Assembly: GCA_958430865.1 (NCBI GenBank)
Contig: CAUDNR010000110.1
Coordinates: 6,007-40,296, forward strand
Reading direction: 5' to 3'
Source: Entrophospora sp. SA101
Lineage: Eukaryota; Glomeromycota; Glomeromycetes; Entrophosporales; Entrophosporaceae
DNA: 34,290 bases
Made by a program: the position numbers and the translations under genes. This document shows, piece after piece, positions 1,021 through 21,542 of this stretch. How positions within the stretch are numbered: the first letter of the stretch is position 1; each line of letters opens with the position of its first letter. Below the pieces are notes generated by a model. That model was not told the DNA's origin, made no database searches, and worked only from the letters and a program-made list of their open reading frames with translations.

Positions 1021-3667
1021 ATTTGGGGTCTGATCAATAGAAACGAGGCATGTCACCAAAAAGTCGATTTTGAGTTAACAATATTTTTATATGTAATTCA
1101 TCGCAAAGAACATTTTTAACTTAGTAACTATACCCACTTTGCTTATAAATGTTTTGAGATATTTGAGGAAAAGTGAAAGGGCGTTAGTCAAATTACGTTA
1201 CATGTAACACAAGCAATTATTGTAAATTAACGTTCTACACATTTTTACAGGTTTTATTATAATGATTACATAATTTAAATGTCTTCTACACATTTATTTT
1301 TTGACAGTGTTTTTGATGAAACACATCCAGAGTTAATAGACCTACAGGAATCCTTTTCTAAAATGAAAATATCATTTCAATTAGATGCAGATTTTAATGA
1401 AGAAACTGAACAAGAAGTACTAGTTATATCAGATATTGAAGATGAAAGTTCAGAAGAAAGTTATCAAGAAACAGAAATTCTATCTAATGAACAAATTAAA
1501 AAATTTAAAAATATTTACTTAAAAAAAAAAATTGAGGATGATGAAATTACAGAATCTGATCAACATAATATGGATATGGATATAGATATAGATATAGATA
1601 AATATATGGAAATTTTTAAAAAAAAGAATTGCTGTGGAAAAGAATGTTTCAAAAATTTAAATTATGAAGAGGTTAAAATTAGGTATAAATGCTTCATTGA
1701 ATTAAAAAAAATTGAACAGGATATTTTTTTAAAAGGTATTCTTGCTGCTAGTATGAAAAGTGAATTAAATTATACTGGAGCTAAAAGACAAAAAATGGAA
1801 ATTGAATACCAATTTAATGGAGTAAATATATGTTCAAAGGCATTTATGGGCATTTATGGCATAGGTAAAACAAGATGGAATAATATTAGAAACCATTTTT
1901 CTAATGACGATATAAAAAAAAGACAAAATGCATTAATGGGGAGAGTAGGTAACAGAACTACACCATTTGATACAGTATTAAAAATACTTATTTTTATTAT
2001 AAAATTTTCTAATATCAATGGGCTTCCATCACCTGGTAAATATAAATGTGAATTATTTTTTAATAAAAAATTGTTAATTTTATTAATTATTATCATAGGA
2101 AGAAACTTTAGGAAAGACACAAACCATTAATTTTTCTTCCTGCAAATGAAACCTACAGTTCTATATATAATTATTATTCCAATTCGATTGATGAGGTTCC
2201 TGATATATTATCAGTTTCATATTCAACATTTTGTCGCATATGGAAAACATATCTTCCTGATATAAAATTCCTTACTCCTAGAAGTGATTTATGTGGATTT
2301 TGTAAGGAACATAGGTTCAATGCAAAATATTGGACACAGGAAGAAAAGGATAAAAAATTATAGAATGGAGTAATCATATTACTTGGGCATTTAATGAACA
2401 AGAATATTACAGGTATATATTTATATTTATTGAATTTATTTGTTCATTTATTTATTTTTATTTTATTTTTTTATTTTTAGAGATTGTATAAAAAATTCAA
2501 AAGAGGCATTTAAGAATTTAACTCAAGATATAAATCCCATTAGACTTGCAAATTCACTTGATATCAAATTTCATATTTCATGGGATTTTGCTGAACAGGT
2601 TCATATTCCATATTCTTCACAACAAGTAGTATGTATTATATTTTTTATAAATAATTTTATGAAAGGCAAATAAATAAAATTTAAAATATATTTAATTGAC
2701 AAATAGGGTAGTTCATTTTTTAAAGCCTTGTATAAAGTTCAAGTATTTGGTATTTGTGAAGATTTTAGACCTAGACAGGTAAATAATTAAAATTTTTTCA
2801 ATTGATTTTAAATTATATAATAAATAATCAACATAATTACTATCTAGATTAATTACCTGATAGAAGAATCACAATTTGTTGGCAAAGGAGCTGATACTGT
2901 TATTTCTTTAGTGCATAATTATTTTGAATTGTATAGTCTTGGTGAAAAAGAAATAATCATTCATGCTGATAATTGTTCAGGACAAAATAAAAACAATGCA
3001 ATGATTCAGTATTTAGCATGGAGAGTATTAACAGGTAAACATAAAAAAATCACATATTCTTTTATGGTCCCTGGCCATACTAAATTTAGTCCTGATGGAT
3101 TTTTTGGACTATTCAAATTGAAGTTAAAAAATTCTGAAGTTGATGATTTAGAAGACCTTGTTAAAGTTGTAAATTCATCAACAAAAGGATATAATATTGC
3201 ACAAACAATTTTTGATGAAACTAGGGAAAAGAAAGTCTTATTTTACAGTTGGACTAAATACTTAAAAACTTTTTTTAAACCATTGCCAAACATTTTAAAA
3301 TATCATCACTTTATTTTTAATCAAGAACAACCAGGAATTATATATGTTAAAAAAAGTATTGACAGTGAACTTTTAATAGTTGACATAACTGAAAATTTAG
3401 ATAATATTGACCGAGTTTTGGAAAGAAAAAATCCAGTAGGTTTATCTGCTGATAGAAAAAAATATTTAAGTGAAGAAGTTTCTAAGTATGTTCAAAATCC
3501 TGTCAAAAAAAATTTTTATTGTAATTTCTGAATTTTTGAATTTTGATTTAATAAAATTTGGCAATGATCTACGACTCAGGGGTTTTGGGGTCAAAAATCT
3601 TATTTCTTAATTTTCTCAAAACATGATTTTGGTGACATGCCTCGTTTCTATTGATCAGGCCCCAAAT
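1021..3667 (+). mobile_element. DNA transposon with terminal inverted repeats and an intron-bearing transposase
   Basis: The left end begins atttggggtctgatcaatag at 1021. The reverse complement of the right end (3667 back to about 3621) reads atttggggcctgatcaatag and continues through aaacgaggcatgtcaccaaa, so the inverted repeat is at least 40 bp with one mismatch in the first 18. The 2.65 kb between the ends holds a single transposase gene on the plus strand. I could not recognise a convincing target-site duplication: the A/T flanks allow several 2-4 bp alignments with none exact beyond 2 bp. The superfamily is uncertain. The transposase belongs to the large fungal/metazoan group that I recall being labelled DUF7869. 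Confidence 0.85.
1279..3531 (+). pseudogene. Transposase of the DNCxGQNKNN / GHTKF family, five exons, two 1-nt frameshifts
   Basis: Inferred exons are 1279-2035, 2099-2412, 2481-2628, 2707-2778 and 2848-3531; all four introns are GT-AG and 63-78 bp. The product would be about 655 residues. It has an acidic N-terminus, a Cys cluster near residue 115 (NCCGKECF), NGLPSPGR near 250, a Cys pair in DLCGFC, then HADNCSGQNKNN (about residue 470) and MVPGHTKFSPDGFFG (about 510), which look like the catalytic core of an RNase H-like transposase. The frame is lost twice: at about 2120, and in the A-run at about 2353, each consistent with one missing base. The protein continues sensibly in the next frame both times. 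It is therefore a recently dead copy, or the A-runs are sequencing errors. All Trp codons here are TGG, unlike the cassettes at 10-17 kb. Family identity rests on my recognition of the motifs. Confidence 0.8.
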
Positions 3668-3723: not shown

Positions 3724-4262
3724 TTTTATTCATTATCAGTATAGATTGGTTTGGGACAAGTGATGTCTTTAAACTCATCTTTCACGAATGGACGAATATT
3801 CTGGTAAAGATATTCTTGTCTTTTGTAATCCAAAGGAGGTGGTGTTAACACTAAAATAGATAAAGTTCTAATTTCTTCAAAAATATCTGATTTCTTGGTT
3901 TTCAATAAATTGAATTCAGCAAAAGGTCCATTAGCAACTTCTTGAACTTTGACCATACCAAGATTAGTTGCTTCAAAAAGAAAATGTTGACATTTCTGTA
4001 TACTTGGTAACTTCTTAAAATAAATTCTCAAAATAGCTTTAATATCTAAATATTGAAAACCTCTTCCACCTTCATAACATTGAGCTTTATTCAATCTAGC
4101 TGGGCTAGACTTTTTTACCACCTCAACCACATGATCTAGACAATCTACTCTGGTTCTTCTATAGAGTTTTTTAATCATCCCAAAATTACCATCACATTTG
4201 AATTTGGTATGTCCAGGAATCATGAAATTCAATTCAATACTTTTATAATAACCACTCCATAT
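3724..4262 (-). pseudogene. Truncated transposase, C-terminal third (copy B)
   Basis: The minus-strand frame carries MIPGHTKFKCDGNFG, CYEGGRGFQYLDIKA and VLTPPPLDYKRQEYLY, closely matching the C-terminal parts of the copies at 11168-12059 and 15539-17264. The DNC/GQN block and everything upstream are missing. Homology stops abruptly at about 4255-4262, inside the segment that reads VICGYYES in the other copies, and unrelated sequence follows. The segment contains no Trp codon, so it gives no information on the code used. It lies just beyond the right end of the transposon at 1021-3667. Confidence 0.8.
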
Positions 4263-5345
4263 AAGAAGAAGCATATATTTATCATCTGAAACATCTATTA
4301 TACATGACCTAGTTTTAAAATAGTTATCTTGGTTATCTCATTGAATTGTTCCTTGGTCAAGATTAACTGTGCATCCTGTAATAGATTCATCTTGTTTACT
4401 ATGGGTTACTAAAATTTATGAATAGGACTATCCTTTATTTCATCAATGGGACATCTATTGTGTGCATTAACTATAATTTGTTGTTCAATGGCATCAACAA
4501 CATCTATATAATTTGTAGTTGGGTTTTTAATATTATTTTCTGATTAATCTGTCACTACTTTATACAATCATCATTATCATTTCCTTCTTCCATTTTTATA
4601 AAAGAATTGATTGAAAGTTTTTTAATGAAAAATGTAAGGGTAAAAAAATAAATTTGTGTATCAATTTAAAATTAAGTGTACATTGCCAGAAGACTCCAGA
4701 TTAGGTAAAAAATAACTGATGATAATAATAATAATTATACACCATCACCAAAACTCCTAATAAAAATAATAATAATTCATGGAAAATAATATTCATAATT
4801 CTTTCGAAGTAAAACGCAATAATCCCGATTGCCAAATTAGTAATAGCGAATTTAAACAAAACAAGTTTTTCTACATTACCGAATATGGTATAGATTAATT
4901 GCCTAATTTCGACTAGAATTATTATACCCGATCGAAGATTAAAGATTGTTACATTTGCGATCTTCATTTAAAGTATATCATTGATTGTCACTTAAAATGT
5001 TATAAATAGAGCAAGACAATATATTAAAAAAAAGTAGATGCTTTGTTAGAATAATATAGAATAATAAATAACATTTGGATATGAAGACTAGAATTATAAT
5101 TAAAAATGATTTATTATTTATGATTTATTTAGATTAAATCTCACAAATGTTTTGTTGTCACCACCACCAAAGCAAGAAAAGAGGCAATACTTTCAATTGC
5201 ATATAATATTTAATTAAAAAATGTGTTTACATCAATCACTTAAATTATTATATTAAAATTAGCAATAATAAATTTTATTTCAAATTAAAAAATTAAATTC
5301 ATAAAGTAAAAAACATCCATCAACAACATACATATAAAAAGAAAA
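4263..5345. other. No intact gene; possible coding relic at 4263-4600
   Basis: On the minus strand, 4600 down to 4263 holds short coding-like stretches (an acidic start MEEGNDNDDC, then DVVDAIEQQIIVNAH) broken by stops and shifts. This may be the remains of the gene that recombined with transposase copy B. A hydrophobic 88-codon ORF at 4701-4967 (minus) has no recognisable family and biased A/T composition. The rest is A/T-rich spacer containing the 3' flank of RPA1. Confidence 0.4.
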
Positions 5346-9502: not shown

Positions 9503-10087
9503 TTTTATTTTAAAAATAAAAAGTTTAAAGTTTATTTGATCGACCGACAAACGCGTGCGCATTAATTATTTATCCCATTGGTATTTTTTTTTGGTAGGAC
9601 AGACGCGAATTGATTTTTTTTTCTTTTCTTTTGGAAAAACAATTTACTTTTCAAAGATGAAAAAACACGAGTGATGTTTGGTTTATGGTTTGGTTTGGGT
9701 CTCCTAAATAAGACGTGTTAATAACTAACCAGAGGTGCTTTTTTTTACTTGTATTGATATAATGTGGTGTCTTATTTTATATAAACATTTTAATTGGAAT
9801 CAAGACGCAGAGCAGATCTTGCTGGGTAATTATAAGATTTTCATTGATAATATTTTGTTTTTCGTAATCATTAATAATACTATTATAAATATTATAATCA
9901 CAAGATATCAAGGCAGCCACCATTGAAAAAGAGACATTTTGAGTATGCAACGTTTGATTACAGGAAAATAGCAGGTGTTGAAGCACGCACACTGTCTTGA
10001 ACACTTACAGTCATTCTCTCACGTTCCTCATGTACAAAGGCTAATCTGACCAAGATTTCCATGATGATATGATGATGCAGTTGAATT
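9503..10087. other. RPA1 upstream region; no gene seen
   Basis: The sequence gatcgaccgac followed by aaacgcg at 9538-9554 sits about 35 bp upstream of the RPA1 start. It matches gatcgatcgac followed by cacgcg at 19306-19322, about 32 bp upstream of the gene at 17671-19272, so it is a candidate shared promoter element. The ORFs at 9735-9926 (plus) and 9777-10004 (minus) overlap each other and show no family features. Confidence 0.4.
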
Positions 10088-10355
10088 TCAGGGGGGGGGG
10101 CGCATGGCCCTGGAGTTTATCATGATTGCACCAATCGTCAATGACACTTTCACTAATCTTCCCAGACCAGAGAAGGCTGCAGGCACGCTGGCCGAAAAGT
10201 TGCCTGCAACAATCCTACCTCTAGATAAAAATGGCACTGTGACCAAATCGCAACTCTGGAGGAATATCAAGAGAATCTGCAACTTGTTTCAAGCACAGGA
10301 GGTTACAATTCAGAGCAGGGTTTGTGGCCCTGAAATTGCATTTGGACTCTGATAT
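10088..10355 (+). other. GC-richer island with an unidentified 82-codon ORF
   Basis: After a run of ten G (10091-10100), the ORF 10104-10352 starts MALEFIMIAPIVNDTF and ends CGPEIAFGL. Its base use is clearly different from the surroundings: roughly half G+C and balanced codons with C or G at third positions, against under 30% nearby. I recognise no family. It has no visible intron, partner gene or terminator. It could be a transferred or inserted fragment, the end of a larger coding sequence truncated upstream, or an ordinary short gene of unusual composition. The opposite strand also stays open for 64 codons and cannot be excluded. Confidence 0.4.
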
Positions 10356-10434
10356 TAAGAGGAAAGTTGTAAAATAGTTTTTGTTTTGTATAATCACTTT
10401 CCTAAATGCTCTGTTTCTCTGATGCTAACCAATT

Positions 10435-10962
10435 TTAATGATTTTGGGTAGGGGTTTTTGGCCAATCTCATCCTTCATATCCTTTTTCTAAAATTCCTTT
10501 TAAAGTTAAATTATCTTCTATTTTGCCTTCTCTTACTCAATTTCTAAATAACTCTTTACTTTCTTCAGAGTTTAATTTGATAAGGTTAATAAAGATATCT
10601 CTTTTTGCCTTATTTCTTACCCGTCAATGAATACTTGATTGTTTCCAATAAGGAAAATATTGATAAGCAGCGAGAATTACATTTCCACGAGCTGCTTCAG
10701 TAGGATACACCTTACAGAACCATTCTCATTCTTCTTGATTGCAATGAGCTGCTCTCATAATTTCATTAACTACATCTACATCAGGATTATCAGTATAATG
10801 TCTCTTACTCAACATAGTAGCTATTCATTCTCTAATTTCATCATTGTTCAACTGTTTAAATTGTGTTTCTTGTTCTTTATCTGCTAATTGCCTCTTTAAA
10901 TTTTCATTTTCTTCTAATAGTTGTTTATTTCTCTCTTGGAATTCATTTATTGTGTTTACCAT
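10435..10962 (-). CDS. Coiled-coil protein, intact only if TGA is read as Trp (cassette 1, downstream gene)
   Basis: From ATG at 10962 the frame runs 175 codons to TAA at 10437-10435 with no TAA or TAG inside, but with five TGA (10825-10827, 10726-10728, 10624-10626, 10537-10539, 10468-10470). Read as Trp these give REWIATML, QEEWEWFC, IHWRVRNK, FRNWVREG and GWDWPKTP. Three further Trp are TGG. Residues 5-35 are a strongly charged heptad-like coiled coil (QERNKQLLEENENLKRQLAD). The rest is a Trp-rich helical domain with a Cys/His patch that I do not recognise. It has no intron. It lies 205 bp downstream of the transposase on the same strand. The gene at 14613-15374 occupies the same place in the second cassette and shares the start MVN.IN and the coiled coil, but has a different C-terminal domain. 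Under the standard code it would be a pseudogene with five nonsense codons and no frameshift. Confidence 0.7.
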
Positions 10963-10974
10963 GATTTTATTTAT

Positions 10975-11063
10975 ATGCTCTTTTAATATACTAATATACT
11001 TATATCCTTTTTATGAGGGCATATTAAGTATATAAATTATTTTAGTACTTTTTTACTTTAAAA
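10975..11063 (-). promoter_or_regulatory. Conserved spacer upstream of the coiled-coil gene (cassette 1)
   Basis: On the minus strand this reads tttaaagtaaaaaagtacta, then aaataatttatatacttaat, then tataag/atattaaaaga ahead of the ATG. Nearly the same order and spacing occurs at 15391-15470 before the second coiled-coil gene, although the C-terminal coding parts differ. Such preservation of a non-coding spacer suggests a promoter or leader. No clear Shine-Dalgarno sequence lies at the usual distance; aaaaggatat is about 40 nt from the ATG. Confidence 0.5.
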
Positions 11064-11167
11064 CTAACAATATTTGTCAAAAGATTAAACTTATTAAACT
11101 TAATGACAATAATGGGACAAATTAACAAGTGTGATAGAGTAATGAAGGTGTTTTTGTTCTAAATATT

Positions 11168-12059
11168 TTATTTGTTGCCAGTATAGAATGGTCTTGGACA
11201 AGTAATATCTTTGTATTCATCTTTCACAAATGGGCGAATATTATGATAAAGATACTCTTGTCTTTTGTGATCCAAAGGAGGTGGTGTTAACACTAAAATA
11301 AATAAAGCTTTAATCTCTTCAAAAATATCTGATTTCTTGGTTTTCAATAAATTGAATTCAGCAAAAGGTCCATTAGCAATTTCCTGAGCTTTGACCATAC
11401 CAAGATTAGTTGCTTCAAAAAGAAAATGTTGATATTTCTGTATACTTGGTAACTTCTTAAAATAAATTCCCAAAATAGCTTTAATATCTAAGTATTGAAA
11501 ACCTTTTCCACCTTCATAACACTGTCTTTATTTAATCCAGCTGGACTAGACTTTTTTACCACCTCAACCTCATGATCTAGACAATCTACTCTGGTTTTTC
11601 TGTAGAATTCTTTAATCAGTCCAAAACTACCATCACATTTAAATTTAGTATGTCCAGGAATCATGAAGTTTAGTTCAACACTTTCATAATAACCACAAAT
11701 TACCAAATATAAATAAAACCAAACAGTTACATTATTTTTATTTTGTCCGCCAGCATTATCACAAGTAATCTTTAAATATTTTTCACTTTTATTCAATTTC
11801 TTAATTCCATCAAAAATCATACTGAGAGTGCCATTGAGTCCTTTTCCTATAATTTCATTTTCATTAAGAGCATAATTAATTTGCTCCCTTACTGCTTCAT
11901 CTTGAATACCAAATAAGTGAACTTTGCATGAACTAAGATAATAAATTTTACTTACTTGTTGATCTAAATGTGGTACATGAACATTTTGGGCTCAATCATA
12001 ACTATAATGAGCAGTAGCATCAATACCACAATATTGTGTTTTACCCTTGGAATAATGTT
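11168..12059 (-). pseudogene. Intronless transposase fragment with TGA as Trp (cassette 1, copy C)
   Basis: From 12059 downward the minus strand encodes TQYCGIDATAHYSYD, a TGA (11994-11992), AQNVHVPHLDQQVSKIYYL, then ITCDNAGGQNKNN, MIPGHTKFKCDGSFG and, after a 1-nt deletion near 11523, CYEGGKGFQYLDIKA to a stop at 11170-11168. It covers roughly the C-terminal half of the family. The relative at 1279-3531 has introns at QQ|V and before INYL; this copy reads straight through both points. The Trp in VTVWFYLYL is TGG here and TGA in copy D. The 5' half is cut off at about 12060 by a small inverted-repeat element. Confidence 0.8.
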
Positions 12060-12062
12060 GAT

Positions 12063-12200
12063 GGTTTGTATTCGCGGATACCGTAAGGAGGTCACACAGG
12101 GTCATACAACATTAAAATCAAGTGTTTTTAAGGGATTTTTTGCTGTTTCAATATTGTGTAACCCTCTTAACAGTATTCATGGTATCCACGAATACAAACC
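12063..12200. mobile_element. MITE with 20-bp inverted repeats, truncating transposase copy C
   Basis: The left end ggtttgtattcgcggatacc (12063-12082) and the right end ggtatccacgaatacaaacc (12181-12200) are inverted with one mismatch. Inner sequences (gaggtcacacagggtcatac versus the inverse of taaccctcttaa) show further weaker inverted similarity, so most of the 138 bp could fold. No coding capacity is seen. It lies exactly where homology between transposase copies C and D stops. The chance ORF at 11968-12243 spans it and is not a gene. Confidence 0.8.
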
Positions 12201-12358
12201 CTATTTAGGACATGATTGTTTAGAAATAAAGAGAATTTTATAGATGATAACAAAAGAGTATAATCATATTATTTATTTCAATAATTTGGTATTTAATACT
12301 CAATGATAAATATCAAGAGTTAATTTTTGTTTTTCTGCACAAACAACATTCTTTTTAG
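12201..12358. other. Spacer; upstream exon of the following gene not found
   Basis: An A/T-rich stretch between the MITE and the first recognisable exon of the nuclease-like gene. An intron acceptor (ttttttag) at 12351-12358 implies an upstream exon, which I cannot identify. Confidence 0.4.
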
Positions 12359-13889
12359 AAATGGAAGAGTAAAGTAGAAGAACTGGAGAGGGAGATTATT
12401 ATACTTACAAAAAAATTAAAAAATTCAGAAACTGCAGGTAAAAATCTCATAGCATAAATATTAGATTGGGATCTAATAAATATGCATAAATTAATTTGTT
12501 CCATTTATCTATATGTATATTTGAAGAATTGTCTATTATATTTTTCGTAACCTTAACTAACCTGTACCATTTTTTTTTTTGATCCTCTTCCTTTTTTAAT
12601 TAAATATGTGACCCTGTTCATTCCTCTTCATTTGTTCTGGATATGTTGATTGTTTTGGTTATGAATATATAATATTACTCTAGTTGTGGAAACTTGTATA
12701 ATTAAATTATCATATTTGAGAAAAATGAAAACTGTTCAAGTAAATATAAATAAGGCAAACAATAAAGACTAGTGCCATAATCCAAAAAAGGAAAAAGTAT
12801 GGTTGCAAAAGTGGTCGCAAAGGTAATTGCAACCATTTTTTATGTGCCATAAATACAATTACTACCATCATCATAATTTACAGCACTAGTCTTTAGCAAA
12901 CAAGTATCCAATAAACTACTTTACAGCACTGGGATTGAAACATCTTGAATTTGTTATTAAAACAGAAAAAAATGTGATTCAAATGACAGAAGATACTCAA
13001 TTAATGAACATCATATCAACCACACCACAAGCACCCATTTTAATTTTTCATACAAGTAAGTAACATTAAATCTGGCATTTTACAGTTTTTGTTATATATT
13101 AATGATTGAAAAATCATTTTTTTAGTGGCATGGCCTTTTTCCAGTTATACCTTTCCAGAAGCCTCAAATTTGTTTAACCTTAAAGTAAACAGCATGGGAG
13201 AATGTCCAGTTTATCATCAAGGGATGGCAGATTTGGTTGGCATGGATCGTTACATTAATGAAACTGTTTGGGACCTTATGGTAACTTTGATAATTTATTT
13301 CTTACTCACTAGATATATTATCTAATTATATGATATTTTATTAGTGTTTACACAGAGCATATGGTGATGTTTCTGGAACAAACAAAGCACTATATTCCGT
13401 TTTTATAAGAGCTGTTCTTGTTGGAATCATCCACACCTATAACCCTGCAGACAATTATTTACTTCTTGAACAAAAGGTAATTATGGGAAGTTATGGAATG
13501 AGGCCTGTTGATTTTGCAATCAAAAAAGGAAACCAGTTTATTGGTATAACAGAGGCAAAAAAAGAAGCCATTAGCAAGGGTTTTGCACAAAACCTGATCC
13601 AGTTGCTTCTTATATGGTCAGTTTTTATATTTTCTTGTAACAATATATTTTTGATGATTCCTTATTATTATGTTTGCATTTATTTATTTATTAGGAAAAT
13701 CAAAAAAGAAAAGATAATGAGGAAACTGATGGGTTACAAGTTCTATTTGGAATTGATTCCACAGGCTCTCAATGGTTTTTTCATCGTTTAATTCATGAAC
13801 CTAATAAAAAATATCCAATCGTTCAGAGAAGTTCTCTTTCACCCATCAATCTATCTGTAATTGGTCATGAATTTGATAAAAAAAGGTAA
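12359..13889 (+). pseudogene. PD-(D/E)XK nuclease-like (Crinkler/REase-type) gene, five exons, one frameshift
   Basis: Exons inferred from GT-AG sites and matching phase are 12359-12437, 12897-13055, 13126-13280, 13345-13616 and 13695-13889 (TAA). The first encodes a coiled coil (KVEELEREIIILTKKLKN). Exons 2-3 contain INYFTALGLKHLEFVIKTE and AWPFSSYTFPEASNLF. Exon 4 has the nuclease-like signature GMRPVDFAIKKGNQFIG followed by TEAKKEAISKGFAQNLIQ, i.e. D...E-x-K plus a downstream Q, as in REase-fold domains of Crinkler-like proteins that are abundant in these fungi. At about 13603 one base appears to be missing: the frame then resumes as ASYM and, after an intron, ENQKRKDNEETDGLQVLFG. The C-terminus ends early at DKKR. 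The start exon is missing or was lost upstream. The active-site call is by pattern only; catalysis is not certain. Confidence 0.65.
12763..12895. mobile_element. Stowaway-like MITE, copy 1 (TA target site)
   Basis: The sequence aagactagtgccataatcca and the inverse ...tttacagcactagtctt form terminal inverted repeats. TA flanks lie at 12763-12764 and 12894-12895. The 129-bp interior contains ggttgcaaaagtggtcgcaa. A near-identical copy lies at 24436-24569. Size, TA duplication and lack of coding sequence fit a Tc1/mariner-type MITE. It sits in an intron of the nuclease-like gene, and the A of its right TA plus the next G make the AG acceptor of the following exon. Confidence 0.88.
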
Positions 13890-14612
13890 ATGAGGAAGTT
13901 TCTGCATTATTCAGTTATTTAAAATGGTCTATTGTAAAATAGTAAATTATAAATCACGGGAAACTGATATATAAATCGGAAATGATTTACGAAGTTACAC
14001 GCAAATAAAAATCGGAAAAACTGATCAAGTGATAACAGTTCAATTTATTCAAACGCCAATAAAATAATTGACTCACGGAAATATTGGAAATATAAATATT
14101 CCAACATTCTAAAATTTAACGGATTACAAAGTCTCGGAATAATATTTAAATGAAAGAATTTTACATGACTCATGTTGACTAGAAATTACTTGAAAATAAT
14201 TCTACATGGAAGGTTTAAATAATGATTAAAGAATACATTAATTAGTATAATTTAGGATTTTAAAGAAATCGGAGAACTAGATGATAGAACCTCTAAAATG
14301 TATAAATACGTTGTAAATTTCTCTTTCATGTAATCTTTAGTTTTTTAACTCAAATATTATAATAAATAAACCTTGACCTTGTCCTTATGGTCTTCGAATA
14401 TTATACTTTCGTAATGATAATAAATCTCCCTAACGACGAATTTATACTATATAATATAATTATTTTCTCTTATTTTATATTTGTCTCTATTAATTTTTTT
14501 ATTTTTTTATTTCTTTTCTTTTCTTTTAGTGCTTTTAGTGAGATCAGAATTTACACTCTTGTTCATCTCCCTTTGCTATTTCCAGAACTCTATATTCTAA
14601 TTTCATATTAAT
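13890..14612. other. No gene seen
   Basis: A/T-rich spacer. The ORF at 14387-14611 is low-complexity, T-rich and has no features of a gene. No tRNA-like or other RNA structure was noticed. Confidence 0.5.
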
Positions 14613-15374
14613 CTACTTACTTTTCTGAATGATAAAAGCTTGGAATTTCTCTTTAGTTTTTTCTTTTGCTTTACTTACTAATTGTTTAAACTTTTGGAAT
14701 CTATTTTCTTTTTGTTGTTTTGGTAAAGCTGGTAATTCTTTGTTTGCTAAATTATCTCTTCAGTTTATTTCCTGATTTTAGTTGACAAATTATTTTCCAA
14801 CAAATCTATTCGGTCTAAGAGTTTGCCCATTGCAGCATCATGTTTTAGTATCACTTCATTCATTTGGCATTTTCTCCACTTCATAGCTGTGTTTAATGCT
14901 TTTTCAGCTTCCTCTTGCTCCATTTCCACTTCATCTTCCAACTCTTCTACTTTCATTTCCAGTTCTTTTTGCTTTGCTTCTAATTCAGCAACTTTTTCTT
15001 CTAAAACAGCATTCTTTTCTTTTAATTCCTTTTTTTCTTGGTAAGTAAAACCAAAAGCTTCTTCATAATTTAATGCTTCACTACCAAAACTTTTAACAAA
15101 ATTTTCAGGAGTGAATCCATCACTGAAAACAACTCTTCCAATTTCAATTCCATTCTTTTTTGGATGACTTACTCAACCATTGTTAGGTCAAGTAAATCTT
15201 TCTAAGGTACTTAAACTTGTTCCAATATTCTGAACTTTCAGTAAGGCTGTGAACAGTATTTCAAATTCTTAATTTAAAGTTTTCTTCTTTTTCAGCTGAT
15301 TGTTTCTTCAATAATTCTATTTCATTTATTAGTGTTTTGTTTGCTTGTTGTTGTTTGTTTATAATGTTTACCAT
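14613..15374 (-). pseudogene. Coiled-coil protein with TGA as Trp (cassette 2, downstream gene), two frameshifts
   Basis: Starts MVNIINKQQQANKTLINEIE at 15374, the same start and position as the gene at 10435-10962. One extra base near codon 37 moves the frame to EFEILFTALLKVQNIGTSLS. It then reads through two TGA (15188-15190, 15173-15175) as RFTWPNNGWVSHPKKNG, followed by FSDGFTPENFVKSFGSEAL. A long charged coiled coil (about residues 110-170, repeated EE/KE heptads) contains MKWRKC with TGG. A further shift near 14768 leads to INWRDNLANKELPALP, where W is TGA (14760-14762), and the frame ends in TAG at 14613-14615. The central domain is not recognised and is unrelated to the C-terminal domain of the cassette-1 gene. 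Under the standard code it would carry five or more disruptions. Confidence 0.6.
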
Positions 15375-15390
15375 GGTTTTTTTTTTTTAT

Positions 15391-15470
15391 ATATTCTTTT
15401 AATATGCTTATATCCTTTTTATAAGGTGTATTAAGTATATAAATTATTTTAGTACTTTTTTACTTTAAAA
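15391..15470 (-). promoter_or_regulatory. Conserved spacer upstream of the coiled-coil gene (cassette 2)
   Basis: This is the counterpart of 10975-11063. On the minus strand it contains ttttaaagtaaaaaagtact, aaaataatttatatacttaa and aaaaaggatataagcatatt before the ATG at 15374. The close match between cassettes marks it as part of the mobile or duplicated unit and a likely promoter/leader. Confidence 0.5.
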
Positions 15471-15538
15471 GCAGAAAAAGATTAAACTTAATGGCAGCAA
15501 GAGACAAATTAATGAGTGATAAAATCATGGAAGTGATT

Positions 15539-17264
15539 TTATTCGTTTCCAGTATAGATTGGTCTTGGGCAAGTAATATCTTTGTATTCATCTTTCACAA
15601 ATGGCCAAATATTCTGGTAAAGATATTCTTGTCTTTTGTAATCCAAAGAAGGTGTTAACACTAAAATATATAAAGTTCTAATTTCTTCAAAAATATCTGC
15701 TTTCTTGGTTTCAATAAATTGAATTCAGTAAAAGGTCCATTAACAGCTTCTTGAACTTTGACCACACCAAGATTAGTTGCTTCAAAAAGAAAATGTTGAT
15801 ATTTCTGGATACCTGGTAATTTTTTAAAATAAATTCCCAAAATTGCTTTAATGTCTAAATATTGAAAACCTTTTCCACCTTCATAACATTGAGCTTTATT
15901 TAATCCTGCTGGACTAGACTTATTTACCACTGCAACCGCATGATCCCGACAATCTACTCCTGTTCTTCTATAGAATTTTTAATAATGCTAAAACTACCAT
16001 CACATTTAAATTTGGTATGTCCTAGAGCCATGAAATTCAATTCAATACTTTCATAATAACCACAAATTACCAAATATAAATAAAATCAAATAGTAGTATT
16101 ATTTTTATTTTGTCCACCAGCATTATCACAAGTAATCTTTAAATGTTTTTCACCTTTATTCAATTTCTTAATTCCATCAAAAATCATACTAAGAGTTCCA
16201 TTAGGACCTTTCCTATAATTTCATCTTCATTAAGAACATAATTAATTTATTCTCTTGTTGCTTCATATTGAATACCAAATAAATGAACTTTACATAGACT
16301 AAGGTAATAGATTTTACTTACTTGTTGATCTAAATGTGGTACATAAACATTTTGGGCTCAATCATAACTATAATGAGTAGTAGCATTAATACTGCAATAT
16401 GGTGTTTTACCCTTTGAATAATTTTGGTTAACTAATTTCTTTGCTCTTCTTCCAATTTGGTATTTTTATTATAATAATTTCTTTCTAATCTTGCTTTAGA
16501 CAGATGTTCTTTAAATCTTTTGAGTAAATCTTTAGCTTCTTCTTCTTGGCGAGCATTAGTGTAAACCATCTCTAAAATGTTGACAAGTATCACACAAATC
16601 AGTTCTTGGACTCATAATTTGAATTTCTGGTGTCAATTGATGTCATAACTTTCTGAAAGAATCATACTTCAAGGACTTTAAATTACTATCTTCTTCTAAA
16701 CCAGCCAGAAAATTTCTGTGCACAGATTTATAACTCATTTCAGCTGGTAAAAATGTAACTGATTGAGTTATTCTATTGTTACTTCTTCCTGGACTTGGTA
16801 ATCCATGAACTTCTGCATAATTTTCAAGGAAGTTTTTACTACTTTAGCAATATTTTTATCAATTACCATTTTGGTTTTTCATTGAGACGTCTTCTTTTAT
16901 ATGTCATGAACTCTTGATATAAGTCCATTGTTTATTAGATGATTTCTGATATTTTCAAATAAGTTCTGCCAATCCCCAACATATTGAGATAAGTTTCTTG
17001 ACAAAGTAGTGTATTATGATCCCAGTGATAGAAAGTCCTTTTATTAAACCCAGTTTTCTTTTTAAGGCGTCTACTAGTGCTTGTTAATCCACCATCCATT
17101 GCCTTAAGTTGGGCCATTAAAAATATGTCTTGTTCTACTTTAGAAAGGGCTTGAAAGGATTCCCTTAATTCTGCAAATTCTTCCTTAGGAATTCTTGAAG
17201 AACAACTACATTTACATACTTTTTCCAAAAAAATCGATTGCTTTTTGATATTCATTAGAACCAT
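15539..17264 (-). pseudogene. Intronless transposase with TGA as Trp, near full length, decayed (cassette 2, copy D)
   Basis: The N-terminus (17264-16935) matches the family: CKCSCSS, KVEQDIFLMAQLKAM (relative at 1279: KIEQDIFLKGILAAS) and YLNMLGIGRTY. Downstream come NYAEVHGLPSPGR, LPAEMSYKSVHRNFLAG, SFRKL-TGA-HQLTPEIQ, SPRTDLCDTC, HYSYD-TGA-AQNVYVPHLDQQ, ITCDNAGGQNKNN, TTI-TGA-FYLYLVICGYY and CYEGGKGFQYLDIKA, ending in TAA at 15541-15539. The three TGA (16645-16643, 16360-16358, 16088-16086) fall where relatives have Trp or another aromatic residue: Trp (TGG) in IWKTYLPDI at the first, Trp (TGG) in copy C at the third. At least five indels and one or two TAA/TAG show decay. None of the four intron positions of the 1279-3531 gene is occupied by an intron. 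The first domain has a Cys cluster that could bind zinc. Confidence 0.8.
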
Positions 17265-17670
17265 TGCATTTATTACCTTTGTGAATATTTTTCATATACA
17301 CTTATCCCTATATATATAATTTTATGTCCACTTTGTAATTTTTTTTAAAATTATTCAAAATCAAAATCATGTGAAGCAAGCTTTGCATTATGTATTGAGA
17401 AGAAATTTTATTGTGGGCATGATTTCATAATTCCATCAAATTTGAAATAAAAATAATATGTAAAATGGAGAGTTCTTATTTTAGAGAAATAATGATAGAA
17501 ATATTTGTCATAAATTTATTTTTTTGTTGCCTAAAAACATATATCATTTAATTGAATCAACAAATAATTATCACATGAAAAGATAAATTATGTTGAAATA
17601 TCTTCACAATTTACATAATCATTTACAAGGATATCAACGCATTTCTGTTAAATGCAAATATTCAATTAAG
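17265..17670. other. Spacer; no gene seen
   Basis: A/T-rich, with no ORF of note between transposase copy D and the 3' end of the next gene. Confidence 0.5.
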
Positions 17671-19664: not shown

Positions 19665-21542
19665 AAACTTTTAGGAATTTGAATCAATTGACGGATTTGA
19701 AACATTGGTTGAAGTATGTCCTTGGAGAACGTGGTGAAAATGTAAATAAATAAATTAGTTTGTGTGATAAACATTTTATTAATGTAATTAATAAAAACAA
19801 ATGAATGTTATATATGTGTGTATAATTTGAAGTATATAATAATGTCTAATGCTTTTTAGGCATAAATAATAATTATAATTATGTATAAATAAACAAAACG
19901 GAGGGAAAAGTGGGGCTTATGTGCAATGATTGTAGAAAATAATTTCACAAACCAATTAATTATAATCGAGAATTTAAAGTTGGTAGCTCGCTCACTTAGA
20001 TATTTGTACTGTGACAAACGCATCTAGTATTCACTGGTCAAAAATTTTGATTTTGACAGGAAATTGATTCATTCTACAAATTTAGAAAAATTAGTTAAAG
20101 GAATTAATTAATATTAATATTCTTCATACAATAACCGCGTTTATTGAACAAATTCTTTCGTGTAACAATATGAAAATTATTTAAACACGTAAAGATCTTG
20201 TAGAATTTTATTACTTTTACTTGGATTGACGAAAATGATACTGTTGTTTCTTATATTTGGCGTGATCTACATTTTATTTATCATACAGCAAATGTTTGAT
20301 TTCTTAATAATTGTGAGTGACAGAGCACAATGATGCACATTTGGGGCATACTGCAATAAAATGAACATTTTAATTTGTATGGTGCGGGTTACCCTAACAC
20401 ATCAAATAACTTTAAATCTAAAATAGAGAAATATTATGCTTGTCTAAAAAAAAATTAGAGATGATATTGATAGCTATTGACTCGTTCTAGAACCTATTGT
20501 TGAGAAAATTTTATATGTAACATATAAAAACACCTATCTAGCTTTAAAGTTGATCAATTTTTATTTAATGTGTTAATGTGACTCACTATACTACCAAAAA
20601 TTTCAGAGTTCAAATGAATTTCATTCTAATATAAATTTCTTATTATTATGTGCAATGTTGTAGTTTCAAATGTTTATGTGTCATTAAACAATATAATCGT
20701 ATCAACCAATAAACCTATCAATCCATATCTAACATTCTGACATAAATTATGAATTTTCTTTTATGAAATAGCTGTGTTTCTAGATCCTAAATCAAGACTA
20801 ATCTGATTCATTCAAAGAAATGTGTTCCTTTTTGCATGTGAGTCTGTATATATAAATTATTTAAAGCAGAATCTATATATTCTGATATTACTCTAAAAGA
20901 TGACTATTCTAATATAAATTTCATTGTTATGCAATATCTTATATACTAAAGTCTATTTAAGTTCATTTACATATTTATATAATTTTAATTTTTAATTTTT
21001 AAATCAGAATTTTTTCCATTAAAACTGGAATCAGGATGATGCAAATGACTGCATTTTTTACCAAAATCATAGAGTACATTTTCAATAACTTTCCATGCCT
21101 TCAAATGCCAATTGGAAGTTACTCACGCTATTAAATATTCCACATAGAACCTTTTTTGCTCTCTTACATGTGAGCAATTTAATGGTTTCCAGCACAGAGG
21201 TAGATTAGTAGATTGGTTGAAACAGACCAAGCTCCTCATTTTAGAATTTTTCGTATGCTTCGTCATCAACATACTCTCCACACTCTCACTCTCGTCTACG
21301 ATCTAAGCTGATAAAATTTTCCCGTTTGTTTCACAGAAGTTTGATTATAATTGGACATGTGACATTTATAAAAAAAACTTTTTTTCATCATTTTAAATAT
21401 AAAAGAAGGTATGTATTATTGAACTTTATTTATTCATTGATCTCAGTTAGTTTATTCTATTAATTATTTAATCCTTTATTGTTCTAAATATTCGTTCATT
21501 ATTAATTCTAGATCTCTCTGATTTAGTTTTTTTTTTTTGAAA
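19665..21542. other. Intergenic; RPS16 promoter side
   Basis: Nearly 1.9 kb of A/T-rich DNA without a supported gene. The last 300 bp contain a pyrimidine-rich stretch (ctctccacactctcactctc at about 21272) and a possible 5' UTR intron acceptor (tgtttcacag at about 21337), plausible for a ribosomal protein promoter and leader. Confidence 0.45.

Follow-up and report, generated by a model that had tools for sequence, protein, structure and literature searches.

Two TGA-containing cassettes and the family they belong to

The stretch of Entrophospora sp. SA101 DNA analysed here (34,290 nt of contig C105; hereafter the window) carries two cassettes in which a transposase gene (open reading frame 1, ORF1) is accompanied by a gene for a coiled-coil protein (ORF2), with TGA codons lying inside the reading frames of both (Table 1). 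The cassettes are members of a family of intronless, cargo-carrying DUF7869 transposons of roughly 4 kb, and there is strong support for their transposase genes having evolved where UGA was read as tryptophan (genetic code 4). The initial annotation of the window had counted twelve TGA and about six TGG codons in the two transposases and two coiled-coil genes, and a recount gave 12 TGA and 7 TGG: one of each in the cassette 1 transposase piece (11488-12063, minus strand), five TGA and three TGG in its coiled-coil frame (10435-11010, minus strand), four TGA and two TGG, together with two TAA, in the cassette 2 transposase when projected onto an open copy, and two TGA and one TGG in the cassette 2 coiled-coil frame (14765-15268). 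At the tryptophan columns of the family alignment described below, cassette 1 has TGA at 316 and TGG at 407, and cassette 2 has TGA at 141, 220, 316, and 407 and TGG at 93. A third transposase fragment spans only the last tryptophan column, which is TGC in this copy, and holds no TGA there.

The window pieces that cover the DUF7869 domain (PF25273) scored 54.5, 52.7, and 36.3 bits, above the gathering cut-off of 26, and the frame at a fetched locus (L036) scored 62.6 bits. A structure predicted for a window transposase piece had a mean pLDDT (a per-residue confidence score) of 38 and was set aside. The truncated ORF2 of cassette 1 is, as judged by eye, nearly identical to a 329-aa open frame at locus L037 (L011). 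Also in the window is a standard-code DUF7869 relative (1021-3667) with several broken frames, whose breaks are introns on the account of the initial annotation only; its last frame (2911-3531) terminates in a TGA stop at 3529-3531.

Table 1. Features of the cassettes and of related elements in the window
Feature	Position	Strand	Description
Cassette 1 ORF1	11168..12063	minus	C-terminal part (codons ~293-587) of DUF7869 transposase, one frameshift; Pfam DUF7869 E=1.5e-14
Cassette 1 ORF2	10435..10962	minus	Truncated coiled-coil cargo gene
Small inverted-repeat element	12063..12200		20-bp arms, 95%; sits at the break in the cassette 1 transposase
Cassette 2 ORF1	15542..17301	minus	Transposase with frameshifts
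Cassette 2 left end	17293..17337	minus	TACAAAGTGGACATAAAATTATATATATAGGGATAAGTGTATATG; bordering sequence absent from the other copies compared
Cassette 2 ORF2	14765..15375	minus	Coiled-coil cargo gene; start placed by eye
Third code-4 transposase fragment	3726..4278	minus	Last 183 aa
Standard-code DUF7869 relative	1021..3667	plus	41-bp terminal inverted repeats, 98%
Part of repeated upstream arm	9570..10454	plus	Adjoins inverted cassette 1
Lone right-end match	20342..20361	minus	GCAGTATGCCCC

The two cassettes of the initial annotation proved too few, as a search of the assembly containing the window (101.3 Mb, 2123 contigs) with a 590-aa transposase returned 1644 first-look candidates, 74 of which were scored to give 75 listed matches on 68 contigs. 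All 75 contain in-frame TGA (in total 243 TGA, 79 TAA, and 26 TAG), and 40 of them have TGA without any TAA or TAG. Open code-4 transposase frames of 571-597 aa were found at 7 of the first 30 loci. These family counts are lower bounds, and some of the broken frames are unproven, as indels may be sequencing errors. The closest relatives of the window copies carry TGA, and the nearest stop-free ones, at five listed places in the assembly, are only 41-44% identical over the matched stretch; standard-code closest relatives with TGG, which the initial annotation had named as evidence against its reading, were thus not seen. The best match of the transposase in the Protein Data Bank (PDB) was unconvincing (E 0.26), and the literature searched, in which coverage of subscription journals was thin, yielded no report of transposons with UGA-coded genes in the nuclei of fungi.

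The element has a left end (..CTACAAAGTGAACATAAAATTATA..) a short way upstream of ORF1 and a constant right end (..ATGTTCACTTTGTCTGGTTTTGTTGCAGTATGCCCC), which is followed by eight differing flanks, 7/8 of them starting with ATAT. The only inverted match between the two ends is CAAAGTGAACAT, and no long terminal inverted repeats were found in the code-4 element, whereas those of the relative at 1021-3667 measure 41 bp. Between the ends lie the transposase (ORF1), a coiled-coil protein that varies between copies and has a common start, its longer frames encoding ~290-340 aa (ORF2), a small CxxC/coiled-coil protein of ~200 aa (ORF3), and, on the opposite strand, a protein of ~90-100 aa without tryptophan in the query copy (ORF4; 150 matches from 1211 candidates). 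The gap between ORF2 and ORF3 is 13-15 nt at the five loci with an ORF2 frame of at least 190 codons (L035, L036, L041, L042, and L043), a set that excludes L032, with its shorter upstream frame and gap of 2. Two further cargo types were observed. At locus L040 the cargo encodes ~1025 aa and has 18 matches, eight of which are open frames of 1021-1063 aa with 15-19 TGA codons each. At locus L039 it encodes a HIT-domain protein with 8 TGA codons; 71 matches to it were listed, of which many are broken pieces. This protein leans towards a bacterial relationship: its best NCBIfam model is Mycoplasma HinT, at 21.8 of 130 bits and thus far under the cut-off, its best PDB match is 3imi (1.4e-8), which we take to be a Bacillus protein, and it is 32% identical to a HIT-domain stretch on contig C923, flagged as bacterial below. 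At L044 and L048, sequences starting GTGATCCGCC and GTGGTCCGCC, respectively, interrupt copies just past ORF1 and are probably another inserted element.

TGA as a synonym of TGG under purifying selection

Thirty-one transposase copies were aligned over 590 codon columns, comprising those of 19 ten-kb loci, the three window copies, L040, and eight short loci, with L001-L005 and others of the first 30 loci entering as longer versions. Of 85 in-frame TGA codons, 79 fall on just five columns, all of them tryptophan columns, where TGG occurs 55 times and other codons three times; only six TGA lie elsewhere. With L019 added (32 copies), the figure is 82/87. Non-terminator TAA (24) and TAG (5) codons are fewer and are scattered over various residues, Y, Q, E, and K among them. 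The equal numbers of TAG and TAA at tryptophan or glutamine positions that would have spoken against the initial annotation did not appear. The mixing of TGA with TGG resembles that of A- and G-ending codons for K, E, and Q, with an A-ending share for tryptophan of 0.59 over the five columns, below those of E (0.91), Q (0.90), and K (0.78). Columns 220 and 316 have TGA in 55/56 copies; since invariant A-ending columns are common for K as well (26/51), these two near-invariant columns need no special cause. In four ORF2 cargo genes the TGA:TGG ratio is 24:8.

Selection on the transposase was assessed under code 4. Among 25 copies with more than 1400 filled positions (300 pairs), the median ratio of nonsynonymous to synonymous divergence (dN/dS) was 0.15 at a median dS of 0.41. 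When the variants were divided by the number of copies sharing them, at columns covered by at least 18 copies, the ratio of nonsynonymous to synonymous alleles relative to neutrality (N/S) was 1.02 for single-copy alleles (495:167), with 30 TAA/TAG alleles among them, and 0.57 for two-copy alleles (140:85), with five. It fell to 0.19 for alleles in three to five copies (72:132) and to 0.17 for alleles in six or more (63:131), classes in which TAA and TAG are absent. The same classes with 32 copies gave 1.00, 0.60, 0.18, and 0.18. When private changes were counted more strictly, by comparison with the remaining copies, the result was 264:123, a ratio of 0.74, and 0.45 in nine well-preserved copies; part of the private change therefore still bears the mark of selection, as expected if it is older than insertion. 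The tree of the 25 copies is star-like, with a median end branch of 0.072. In addition, alternative modules appear to be shuffled among copies at transposase codons 456-515, which suggests either that the source pool recombined or that gene conversion took place.

TGA is thus a synonym of TGG at conserved tryptophan columns under purifying selection. Because TGA is concentrated on these columns and shared variants are constrained under code 4, the evolution of the transposase genes under UGA as tryptophan is strongly supported. We read the pattern as that of a diverse pool of source genes in which UGA was translated as tryptophan, and whose nuclear copies decay individually. Of the proposal in the initial annotation that the cassettes evolved under translation table 4 and then entered nuclear DNA, the first half is strongly supported by the tryptophan columns, the dN/dS of 0.15, and the absence of TAA and TAG from variants present in at least three copies.

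Nuclear residence and the possible source compartment

The flanks of code-4 copies include a SPOC-domain gene, a Methyltransf_4 gene, DDE_1/Tc5 transposase pieces, and a protein-kinase-like frame; a domain scan gave matches in 5/10 flanking frames, and some fetched loci have no recognisable neighbour gene. In the window, the DUF7869 inverted-repeat element and the small inverted-repeat element adjoin the copies or sit at their break. The residence of the copies in nuclear DNA, the other half of the proposal, is supported by the constant right end on differing flanks, by eukaryotic neighbours such as the SPOC-domain gene and the Tc5-type pieces, and by the inverted-repeat element in cassette 1. 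Direct and inverted duplicate matches were observed inside single contigs (C459, C1359, C1904, and C1428), and these may be real or amplification artefacts.

An upstream arm of ~2.5 kb meets the left end in at least seven fetched loci, with pairs 63-83% identical and no long frame in those inspected. It was observed at L034, L036, L041, and L043-L047 as well as in the window. On one side of it are the code-4 transposons and on the other, as judged by eye, first exons of genes transcribed divergently; L034 has pieces resembling a PIF1 helicase, likewise by eye. A tRNA-Val call in L036 falls within the arm. The divergence of the arm does not correlate with that of the transposase (-0.22, 21 pairs; -0.19 for its near part, 55 pairs).

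Bacterial DNA using TGA as a sense codon is present in the same assembly. In-frame TGA occurs in three bacterial rpoB genes, on contigs C2074, C555, and C1799, which suggests three strains, and bacterial-type beta subunits outscore eukaryotic ones for a 239-aa rpoB piece. Further flagged contigs (C792, C293, C923, and others) carry class-I tRNA synthetases and GTPases that use TGA as sense. In all, 15 contigs were flagged as bacterial, by eye from gene lists, a set that is incomplete; judged by their code and the host group, they would belong to Mollicutes-related endobacteria. Contigs C447, C976, and C1379 had been considered bacterial on account of ABC pairs and were dropped, having no TGA; the 241-base piece on C1379 consists of the right end plus an unassigned flank and nothing else. 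A pattern search of 101 Mb for tRNA(UCA) gave a single match, on flagged contig C792; as the number of rpoB genes points to three strains, the pattern is an insensitive one. The tRNA genes called in the window and in 20 fetched loci included none with a UCA anticodon. The rpoB piece matched one metagenome-assembled genome in genome_contigs (46%), and searches of that collection with the transposase or the rpoB piece reached no Mollicutes-related genome outside the assembly. PF25273 had no match in 373 genomes of the class to which that genome belongs, where the controls were equally silent, so that no absence is shown. Endobacteria have been reported in these fungi, together with host-to-bacterium transfers and contaminated assemblies (PMC10507103; PMC11423566).

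The pattern as a whole makes repeated flow from a compartment reading UGA as tryptophan into the nucleus very probable. Given the TGA-using rpoB genes and the tRNA(UCA) match on a bacterial contig of the assembly, a Mollicutes-related endobacterium is the likeliest, though unproven, compartment and may reasonably be taken as the probable one; the donor named in the initial annotation is plausible on the strength of the TGA-using contigs but no listed copy lies on them. The reading favoured overall, to which we assign a probability of about 0.6, is that endobacterial code-4 transposons inserted repeatedly in the nucleus and decayed there. The genes of the element would be kept by selection where UGA is tryptophan, most likely in Mollicutes-related endobacteria, and copies from a diverse source pool would arrive repeatedly in the fungal nucleus and insert. 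There UGA would act as a stop, so that the proteins would not be made and each copy would decay neutrally. Both the endobacterial source and transfer by transposition are what we infer.

Several observations weigh against this reading. A copy in endobacterial DNA was not encountered, as 0/75 listed matches (68 contigs) fall on the 15 flagged contigs, which are also absent from the 123 and 122 contigs listed by two other element searches. The flagged contigs cover at least ~0.77 Mb (summed listed coordinates), and the zero is weak evidence because an even spread predicts only ~0.6 of 75 matches; an active source, however, should be richer in copies, and such a source was not seen. Outside the assembly, no relative of the transposase was found in genome_contigs (transposase piece) or in the plasmid, phage, and viral_contigs collections (590-aa query). 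Codon usage of the element (G+C at third positions 0.20, AGR:CGN 119:14) is closer to that of a nuclear sample (0.19, 35:26) than to that of the bacterial rpoB piece (0.31, 2:10, from 239 codons). No left inverted-repeat end could be defined and there is no consistent target duplication, an 8-bp candidate lying directly at both ends in L033 only of seven copies tested. Since L042 and L043 have a stop and a frameshift in common, some copies are not independent arrivals, and some multiplication or exchange inside the nucleus occurs. Finally, the arm shared by at least seven loci is unexplained by the favoured reading; it could have arisen by repeated insertion next to one type of nuclear repeat, or by recombination.

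Alternative explanations and comparison with known systems

The alternative that survives best, though unlikely, is an ordinary nuclear transposon with nuclear master copies, whose UGA codons are read as tryptophan by the fungus in general or through a dedicated suppressor tRNA. It fits the nuclear-like codon usage, the location of the best-preserved copies on contigs not flagged as bacterial, and the high copy number, which is normal in nuclear amplification. However, TGA occurs freely beside TGG and dominates in the cargo (24/32 in four ORF2 genes), and UGA therefore had no visible cost in the setting that selected these genes. The standard-code DUF7869 relative nearby uses TGA as a stop, the sole tRNA(UCA) match lies on a flagged bacterial contig with none called in the window or the 20 loci, and the ORF2-ORF3 spacing of 13-15 nt also speaks against nuclear decoding.

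Next in probability, and again unlikely, is an origin in mitochondria, from a plasmid or mobile element whose copies entered the nucleus in the manner of nuclear mitochondrial DNA copies (numts). Fungal mitochondria also read UGA as tryptophan, and both code 4 and the gene spacing are compatible with this origin. In 8/15 copies shown, ATATAAGTA lies in the ORF2 leader, within ~60 bases upstream of the gene, a sequence that is presumably equal to the yeast mitochondrial promoter nonamer. Against it, a pool with a median dS of 0.41 and mosaic alleles is unlikely in one mitochondrial lineage, the best matches of the HIT cargo are bacterial by name or, presumably, by origin, and a scan of eight element proteins revealed no polymerase domain.

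The third alternative, an improbable one, is that the element was imported only once, long ago, and that a standard-code transposase of the same superfamily then multiplied the dead code-4 copies in the nucleus. Stop-free relatives exist in the genome (1021-3667 and the five listed places), the arm is common to many copies, and the stop and frameshift shared by L042 and L043 would be expected. Dead copies, however, would share stops and drift to an N/S of 1, whereas variation present in at least three copies is strongly constrained and free of TAA and TAG, and the lack of correlation between arm and transposase divergence also argues against joint multiplication.

Assembly or amplification chimeras that fuse endobacterial DNA to nuclear contigs are very improbable. 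The inverted or repeated duplicates on C459 and C1359 and the bacterial genes in the assembly would agree with them, as would the apparent contamination of published assemblies of this fungal group (PMC10507103), but not the constant right end with differing flanks at eight loci, the eukaryotic genes and elements in the flanks, the neutral private changes in the copies, or the absence of listed copies from flagged contigs. That cytosine deamination, as in repeat-induced point mutation, turned TGG into TGA under an unchanged code has a negligible probability: such G-to-A change would yield TGA and decay is evident in many copies, but columns 220 and 316 are almost uniformly TGA, TAG and TAA are fewer and scattered, and TAA/TAG alleles reach at most two copies.

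The repeated insertion of endobacterial code-4 transposons thus remains the favoured reading. It is tempting, though tentative, to suppose that a transposon selected in an endosymbiont transposes repeatedly to the nucleus of the host and is mute on arrival, in which case the host genome would preserve in fossil form the symbiont's population of mobile elements, changing cargo included. The age and origin of foreign DNA in nuclei are usually judged from sequence similarity and nothing else. In the present case the genetic code itself reveals the setting in which selection took place, and a comparison of private with shared variants distinguishes the time spent in the source from the subsequent nuclear decay. 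Confirmation of the source would mean that host genomes record the mobile elements of their endosymbionts, and that the DNA of resident bacteria enters nuclei often enough to leave many copies. For annotation, stop-ridden repeats in such genomes call for caution, as they may be intact genes of another code.

Among known systems, the closest are the DUF7869 transposases, whose domain the C-terminal region of the element matches above the curated cut-off and of which a standard-code relative lies in the window; the element differs in reading UGA as tryptophan, in being intronless, in its extra cargo genes, and in a conserved right end without 41-bp inverted repeats. Numts and endogenous copies of mitoviruses are code-4 frames that lie inert in nuclear genomes, as the frames described here do, but the present case is a transposon that carries cargo, has a precise right end, and occurs in many copies. 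For gene exchange between Mollicutes-related endobacteria and their hosts, the presumed partners are identical, but the genes in the transfers reported by one study enter the bacterium from the host, whereas here a repeated mobile element sits in the host nucleus (PMC10507103). As in cargo-carrying transposons, a single transposase is linked to changing cargo, although the present element is ~4 kb long, is DUF7869-based, and is written in a foreign genetic code.

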